This document shows positions 52,613-53,993 of a stretch of DNA of 64,000 nucleotides, in pieces. This DNA is from Candidatus Jordarchaeales archaeon (GTDB lineage: Archaea; Asgardarchaeota; Jordiarchaeia; Jordiarchaeales; Freyrarchaeaceae): contig JAWAHN010000003.1 of assembly GCA_038889235.1 (NCBI GenBank), positions 239,703-303,702 on the forward strand. Direction: 5' to 3'. The translations under genes were made by a program, and so were the position numbers. The notes below the pieces were generated by a model. It searched no databases, was not told where the DNA came from, and saw nothing but the letters and a program-made list of their open reading frames with translations. How positions within the stretch are numbered: the first letter of the stretch is position 1; every line of letters starts with the position of its first letter.

Positions 52613-53173
52613 TTAGGATTCCAGTGTTAGGAGCGCGCCTCTTTCTATGCAGCATTTAACAAGTGCTTCGAACTCGTCTCTAGCTTGCACGGATTCCAGC
52701 TCAACGCTTTCTATGCCGAAAGCCTTCTTTATTCGCTCAGCCTTTTCGCCGTCAAGCTCGAGGACGCCGTCGTCTTCCAGTGCGCCGAGCGCTTCAATAA
52801 CGTAGCGGGCTGCCTCCTCAACCCTGCCCCCCTTCGCGCCGACAGCCACGAGGCCGAGCCTCTCGCACCCTTCCTTCACCCCGAACATTTCGAGGGCCAC
52901 ATTTATCTGCCTTTGCCCCGAAAGCCTGACCAGGATTTCCATTCCGAGACTTCGGGCTATGCGCCTTCCGGCATCACTAGCCTTGACCGCGTTCAGCGTG
53001 CTGAAAAAGACGTGTTCCCACGTAGCGACAAGCGACGCGTCGAAGATCTGCACGACAACCCCGAACTTCGCTTCGGCCTCCCGGGTGAGATGCAAGGCTT
53101 CTTCGATGCCGACAAGACCCCTTAAACCGCATATGCATGCGACGCGGTCACCGTTCAGCTCGACAACCTTCAC
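52613..53173 (-). CDS. cgi121: KEOPS complex Cgi121-like subunit
   Basis: The 186-residue protein includes VQIFDASLVATWEHVFFSTLNAV near residue 37 and VRLSGQRQINVALEMFGVKEG near 82, the latter matching the Cgi121 core. The N-terminal CICGLRG block also fits. Cgi121 helps KEOPS bind tRNA and transfer threonylcarbamoyl in t6A synthesis. It overlaps the upstream phosphoribosyltransferase gene by 26 bp. Confidence 0.85.
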   Translation of the reverse strand: MKVVELNGDRVACICGLRGLVGIEEALHLTREAEAKFGVVVQIFDASLVATWEHVFFSTLNAVKASDAGRRIARSLGMEILVRLSGQRQINVALEMFGVKEGCERLGLVAVGAKGGRVEEAARYVIEALGALEDDGVLELDGEKAERIKKAFGIESVELESVQARDEFEALVKCCIERGALLTLES

Positions 53174-53783
53174 CCATAACCCCCCTAAACTTCTCCCTCC
53201 ACTTGAGGAGGGGGTCTAGGTATTTAAGCGGGATCGGTATGTTTGCCAGGAACTGTTTTATCTCATGTTCCTCCCGCCCCTCAGCTTTAAGCCTCCCATA
53301 AACGCTCTCTATGCTCTCGAAAAGTTCCCAGGGGTAGATCACCCACGCGTCAGTGACCTCGCCGTAGTAGTCGGGGGTAACTATGCTCCACGGCTTAAAG
53401 TGCAGAGTGGCAACTTTGAGGAGGCTTGCCCCCCTCTCCCTAATGTGGCCGATGACGGCGCGCAGGCTGTGCCCGCTGTCTGCGACGTCGTCGCACAGGA
53501 GCACGCGCTTCCCGGAGACGTCGACTGATAGCGGCTGCGTTATCACGGGCTCCCTCATATGCCTCCCGACGTCAGAGTAAAATTCGACCACGACGGATCC
53601 AACGCATCTAACCGAGAGAAGGTCCGACATGATCCGCGCTACAACCCAGCCTCCGCGCGCGATACCAACTATGACGTCAAACGATAAACCGTCACGTAGG
53701 ATCATGTCGGCCACTTTCATGGCGAGAAAGTAGATTTCATCCCACGTTGGAGCAATAAACTTTAACGATGACGACAAACGCAA
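53148..53783 (-). CDS. Phosphoribosyltransferase (purine-type)
   Basis: The open frame extends up to 53936, but that part lies across the tRNA-Pro gene and cannot be real protein. I place the start at TTG 53783 (53777 possible), so the protein begins near SSSLKFIAPTWDEIY, as homologues do. About 211 residues. The family signature is VGSVVVEFYSDVG, then RVLLCDDVADSGHSL, the PRPP-binding loop. The likely substrate is hypoxanthine, guanine or xanthine. Its last 26 bp overlap cgi121. Confidence 0.85.
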   Translation of the reverse strand: MRLSSSLKFIAPTWDEIYFLAMKVADMILRDGLSFDVIVGIARGGWVVARIMSDLLSVRCVGSVVVEFYSDVGRHMREPVITQPLSVDVSGKRVLLCDDVADSGHSLRAVIGHIRERGASLLKVATLHFKPWSIVTPDYYGEVTDAWVIYPWELFESIESVYGRLKAEGREEHEIKQFLANIPIPLKYLDPLLKWREKFRGVMGEGCRAER

Positions 53784-53836
53784 ACCCCCAATCCACGAAG
53801 AGACAACAAGCCATGAAGAATTCAGGGAAGGGAGTA

Positions 53837-53993
53837 TGGTGGGCGGGCCAGGAGTCACACGCGCACACACGTGCATGCGCGCTTTGAACCCGGGGCCTCC
53901 GGCTCCCGAAGCCGGTTGCATGCGGTGAACCTTCATCGTTCACCGAGTCATACCATGTTCCCCGCTTCATCCGAAGCTCTAGACTACCCGCCC
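53837..53993 (-). tRNA. tRNA-Pro(CGG) with three apparent introns
   Basis: Read on the minus strand, GGGCGGG (53987-53993) pairs with CCCGCCC (53841-53847) as acceptor stem, followed by A and an encoded CCA. The anticodon arm is CCGGC, loop TTCGGGA, GCCGG, giving anticodon CGG (proline). The T arm is CCGGG and CCTGG with loop TTCAAA...T, and the variable loop is AGGCC. Three extra insertions remain: ~23 nt in the D-loop (with hairpin GCTTC-GAAGC), 30 nt between positions 26 and 27 (hairpin CGGTGAAC/GTTCACCG), and 29 nt in the T-loop (CGCGCA/TGCGCG). Removing them leaves a normal 75-nt tRNA. Exact splice sites are inferred; each insertion can form a bulge-helix-bulge-like stem. Confidence 0.87.

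Follow-up and report, generated by a model that had tools for sequence, protein, structure and literature searches.

A three-intron tRNA-Pro(CGG) gene in a Jordarchaeum (Asgard) archaeon, with predicted junctions in the D-loop, at 25/26 and in the T-loop

Introduction

The locus considered here raises the question of whether a short piece of DNA that standard finders pass over can nevertheless be a working tRNA gene and, if so, where it would be cut and by what. It lies in a window of 64 000 nucleotides (the whole stretch of DNA that was analysed), part of contig C3 of a 2.14 Mb genome that is 95% complete. The host, a Jordarchaeum, belongs to the class Jordarchaeia of the kingdom Promethearchaeati, the Asgard archaea (NCBI); according to the account in PMC11291895, the class was first named Freyarchaeia. 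Left unspliced, the window yields no tRNA with ARAGORN or Rfam. Permissive intron settings of ARAGORN on the unspliced DNA return only noise, and a permissive Rfam scan only chance matches. A first-pass annotation had proposed a minus-strand tRNA-Pro with an encoded CCA, split by three introns.

Results and discussion

The spliced sequence

The gene, GGGCGGGTAGTCTAG...CCCGCCCACCA, runs along the minus strand from the acceptor 5′ strand, which begins at 53993, to the CCA end at 53837, exactly the coordinates and strand first proposed. Once three insertions are taken out (Table 1), ARAGORN recognises a tRNA-Pro(CGG), and it makes the same call for the spliced sequences of four out of four species, namely our genome (G000) and three others of the genus (G001, G002 and G003). 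The annotation had reckoned with the chance that no tRNA would be left after this removal; its identification of a tRNA-Pro(CGG) with three introns is instead supported, the sites being the D-loop, the junction between the D and anticodon stems, and the T-loop. The product is 77 nt long including CCA. Its D stem has three pairs only, U13–U22 being mismatched, and across seven sequences of the cloverleaf ten pairs have changed on both sides. Of the intron lengths first given (about 23, 30 and 29 nt), the last two are borne out, while the first is most likely 21 nt; the 75 nt originally expected for the mature tRNA becomes 77 nt with CCA as a consequence. Taken together, the sequence evidence makes it very probable that the Jordarchaeum archaeon has, at positions 53837–53993, a tRNA-Pro(CGG) gene that functions, with three introns that would be spliced by proteins to give the 77 nt tRNA.

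Table 1. Predicted parts of the tRNA-Pro(CGG) gene and the neighbouring gene (window coordinates)
Feature	Positions	Strand	Support
Exon 1: acceptor 5′ strand and D-stem 5′ strand, up to nt 15	53979–53993	−	Identical in four genomes
Intron 1: 21 nt, D-loop, position 15/16, relaxed BHB	53958–53978	−	BHB geometry and D-loops of uninterrupted relatives
Exon 2: CATGGTATGAC, remaining D arm up to nt 25	53947–53957	−	Identical in four genomes
Intron 2: 30 nt, position 25/26, canonical BHB	53917–53946	−	BHB geometry
Exon 3: nt 26, anticodon arm with CGG, variable loop, T arm up to nt 59	53883–53916	−	
Intron 3: 29 nt, T-loop, position 59/60, BHB with one central mismatch	53854–53882	−	BHB geometry
Exon 4: T-stem 3′ strand, acceptor 3′ strand, CCA end	53837–53853	−	Identical in four genomes
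Phosphoribosyltransferase gene, downstream, likely start TTG 53777; synteny marker outside the tRNA	53148–53777	−	Conserved in G001–G003

Conservation in the genus

The three other genomes of the genus all carry the tRNA-Pro(CGG) with all three insertions, upstream of the same phosphoribosyltransferase gene, whose closest named relatives are in Candidatus Jordarchaeum and Jordarchaeia MAGs (76–82% identity). A single base of the mature tRNA varies among the four genomes, nt 59, which differs in G001 only. The intron loops and the flanks diverge freely; intron 1 is strongly conserved in its 3′ part. The annotation had suspected that the tRNA gene was hidden under an over-long phosphoribosyltransferase frame. 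This open reading frame (53148–53936, minus strand) does start inside intron 2; since the relatives carry an in-frame stop between the tRNA and the phosphoribosyltransferase, its extension into the tRNA is an artefact.

Splice-site geometry

The bulge–helix–bulge (BHB) motifs that the annotation suggested looking for are predicted at all three junctions, in canonical form at 25/26 and in relaxed form at 15/16 and 59/60, and each insertion has its own hairpin, as had been claimed. We enumerated every succession of outer helix, 3 nt bulge, 4 bp helix, 3 nt bulge and inner helix in the four precursors. The T-loop and 25/26 junctions are the two best BHBs in G000, G002 and G003; in G001 the 25/26 junction ranks first and the T-loop junction third. 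Intron 2 (central helix TATG/CATG, cuts AC^T and CA^A) is a BHB in the strict sense of a 3 nt bulge, a 4 bp helix and a 3 nt bulge, with four of four central pairs in the four genomes. All 11 of its central and inner pairs counted hold in every genome (100% of cells, compared with 18–57% for slid-partner controls). Covariation in intron 2 taken alone, in four close genomes, is not above that of its own shuffles (113/500).

Introns 1 and 3 fall outside the strict definition, with three of four central pairs each, and fit only the relaxed BHB class (hBH/HBh′), which is conserved in 11 D-loop introns and, for intron 3, in the four genomes. The T stem serves as the outer helix of intron 3, whose central helix TTCA/TGTG has one mismatch and whose cuts are AA^G and AC^T; in G001 its inner helix is just 3 bp in a gap-free count. 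Intron 1 is devoid of an outer helix and also has one mismatch in its central helix (GTCT/GGGG, cuts AG^A and AA^C). With the junctions held fixed, shuffled introns reach the observed geometry in 11, 0 and 2 of 20 000 cases for introns 1, 2 and 3, respectively. The splice geometry at all three junctions is conserved across the four genomes.

The D-loop junction

The exact ends of intron 1 call for a comparison with genes in which the D-loop is uninterrupted. It reads TAG-CAT-GGTAT in G035 and G041 and TAG-ATT-GGTAT in G011, and removal of 21 nt from the window gene leaves exactly TAG-CAT-GGTAT. As the BHB-predicted junction thus gives the D-loop seen uninterrupted in G035 and G041, intron 1 is most likely 21 nt long. 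One may wonder whether the tRNA gene is real and the junction lies elsewhere, with 19 or 24 nt removed for example, given that the BHB of intron 1 is the weakest of the three and that the 19 nt alternative scores equally in the enumeration. We consider this unlikely: only the 21 nt junction leaves three bases between nt 15 and GG, the number seen in relatives with an uninterrupted D-loop, and 11 D-loop introns can be cut in the same way (used as a search pattern, the D-loop motif also matches many other places, possibly coding). The comparison with uninterrupted relatives also led us to replace a model in which removal of 24, 29 and 29 nt left a 75 nt product by one with introns of 21, 30 and 29 nt. 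In G035 and G041, which belong to another Asgard family, the tRNA-Pro(CGG) has an intact D-loop and a different set of introns, its large insertions being in the regions of the variable loop and the T-loop.

Alternatives considered: a pseudogene or insertions with a function

A gene that is invisible to standard finders could be a decaying pseudogene broken by insertions, with the real tRNA-Pro(CGG) elsewhere or with CCG codons read by tRNA-Pro(UGG) alone; the latter tRNA is present, and wobble pairing could in principle allow it to read CCG. The pattern of change is unlike that of a pseudogene, one base differing in the mature tRNA while introns and flanks diverge, and the splice geometry is kept at three out of three junctions. 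Moreover, a second intact tRNA-Pro(CGG), which the annotation would have taken as evidence against its reading, was found in the 95% complete genome neither by a BLAST query nor by an anticodon-arm pattern, which a copy interrupted inside the pattern could escape. We therefore regard a pseudogene as extremely improbable. The retention of the introns throughout the genus and the strong conservation of the 3′ part of intron 1 might also suggest that the insertions persist not as neutral introns but by virtue of some function, such as that of guide RNAs or of regulators of tRNA folding. The conserved intron letters are, however, those that the splice helix needs, while the loops vary freely, and no Rfam family matches them, so that such a role appears highly improbable. 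A functional gene with three introns removed by protein splicing remains the reading that we retain.

Splicing machinery

Protein splicing of an archaeal tRNA intron calls for EndA and RtcB in the same genome, and both are encoded here, EndA as two paralogues (PF01974 proteins). EndA alpha has the catalytic Tyr, His and Lys, and among solved structures it matches the Aeropyrum pernix enzyme best (PDB entry 3P1Z); in the alignment to this structure, its Lys51 falls on Lys44 of the Crenarchaea-specific loop. In crenarchaeal enzymes, the broad specificity for relaxed BHBs is reported to come from this loop lysine (PMC6379350). EndA beta is without the catalytic His. The sequences thus show the features of an (alpha-beta)2 EndA with a Crenarchaea-specific loop (full triad and loop lysine in alpha, incomplete triad in beta), and we infer that the enzyme is of this type. 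The A. pernix (alpha-beta)2 EndA has the catalytic triad and the loop lysine in common with Jordarchaeum alpha, but here the host is an Asgard archaeon and the assembly is predicted from sequence.

In the pathway that we propose, transcription of the gene would give a precursor no shorter than 157 nt, in which the introns at 15/16 (21 nt), 25/26 (30 nt) and 59/60 (29 nt) would each form a hairpin beside a canonical or relaxed BHB. A heterotetrameric (alpha-beta)2 EndA would cleave each bulge 3′ of its second base, and the exons would be joined by RtcB into the 77 nt tRNA. Transcription, cleavage, ligation and aminoacylation of tRNA-Pro(CGG) are steps that we infer from the genome sequence. Through the loop lysine, a link between the breadth of the endonuclease and the intron load becomes open to testing in those archaea that stand nearest to eukaryotes.

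Comparison with known interrupted tRNA genes

Heavily interrupted tRNA genes have already been reported for the Jordarchaeum lineage, and the window gene is a further instance. The 2024 account in PMC11291895 gives 92–95% of tRNA genes with introns in Freyarchaeia (the Jordarchaeia) and Atabeyarchaeia, and several introns in more than half of the genes; these multi-intron genes are from the same lineage as the window gene but from other species. The earlier remark that three introns in one tRNA are rare was therefore overstated: multiple noncanonical introns are described there as the rule in this lineage, and three are likewise present in the tRNA-Pro(UGG) of our genome. Positions 25/26 and 59/60 appear among the known noncanonical sites in PMC4090602. 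Position 15/16 is absent from its short list of sites, but since that list ends in ‘etc.’ we do not claim it as a new site. The tRNA-Pro(UGG) of Pyrobaculum islandicum (Sugahara et al., 2007, as cited in PMC4090602) resembles the window gene in that a tRNA-Pro is interrupted three times, with an intron at 25/26 and another in the T-loop. It differs in that its introns besides that at 25/26 are at 37/38 and 56/57, whereas the window gene is without an anticodon-loop intron and has one in the D-loop at 15/16. Among interrupted Asgard tRNA genes, the tRNA-Pro(CGG) is a well supported case with exact predicted junctions, missed by the finders used.

Distribution and history of the introns

A D-loop intron is the sole intron of tRNA-Pro(CGG) in three genomes of another family of the same order (G005, G006 and G007) and in three of a further Asgard family (G020, G027 and G034). 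In all six, its site and its relaxed BHB coincide with those of intron 1 in the window gene; unlike the window gene, these six have neither the 25/26 nor the 59/60 intron. Because it stands alone in these two families, the D-loop intron is probably the oldest of the three, coming from an ancestor common to other Asgard families, and those at 25/26 and 59/60 would probably have been gained later in the Jordarchaeum line. This staged distribution, with the D-loop intron alone in two families and three introns in Jordarchaeum, allows intron gain to be placed on a tree.

The relaxed D-loop geometry is also found in two other tRNAs of our genome, tRNA-Pro(UGG) and a probable tRNA-Lys(UUU), the latter with the same GGGGAA^C 3′ junction. 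One could tentatively imagine, although we think it rather doubtful, that 15/16 introns form a recurrent class inherited in Asgard archaea, in which, across several isotypes, the 3′ part (GGR-AA^C type) forms a helix with the D-stem 5′ strand, always including a G–purine mismatch, and is cut by an Asgard EndA with a loop of the Crenarchaea-specific type. If true, these would be among the oldest traceable tRNA introns in the closest archaeal relatives of eukaryotes.

Other tRNA genes of the genome

The tRNA-Pro(UGG) lies at about 741601–741750 of contig C1, with introns in the D-loop (19 nt), at 25/26 (20 nt) and in the T-loop (about 29 nt, near 58/59); its spliced form is called tRNA-Pro(TGG) by ARAGORN. 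The probable tRNA-Lys(UUU), on the same contig, has several insertions, including a D-loop intron of 17 nt (D-loop at 1043396–1043419, reverse complement). A tRNA-Pro(GGG) was not located in the genome. A general tRNA model finds 12 tRNAs in this genome, 5–19 in the other genomes of its order and up to 41 in other Asgard genomes, though some of these assemblies are incomplete and weak matches escape the scan; a low count would be expected if most tRNA genes are interrupted. Finally, the short contig C6 (5713 bases) carries a tRNA-Arg(CCG) free of introns as well as another sequence resembling a tRNA and, given how intron-rich the genome is, may be a contaminant or a mobile element.
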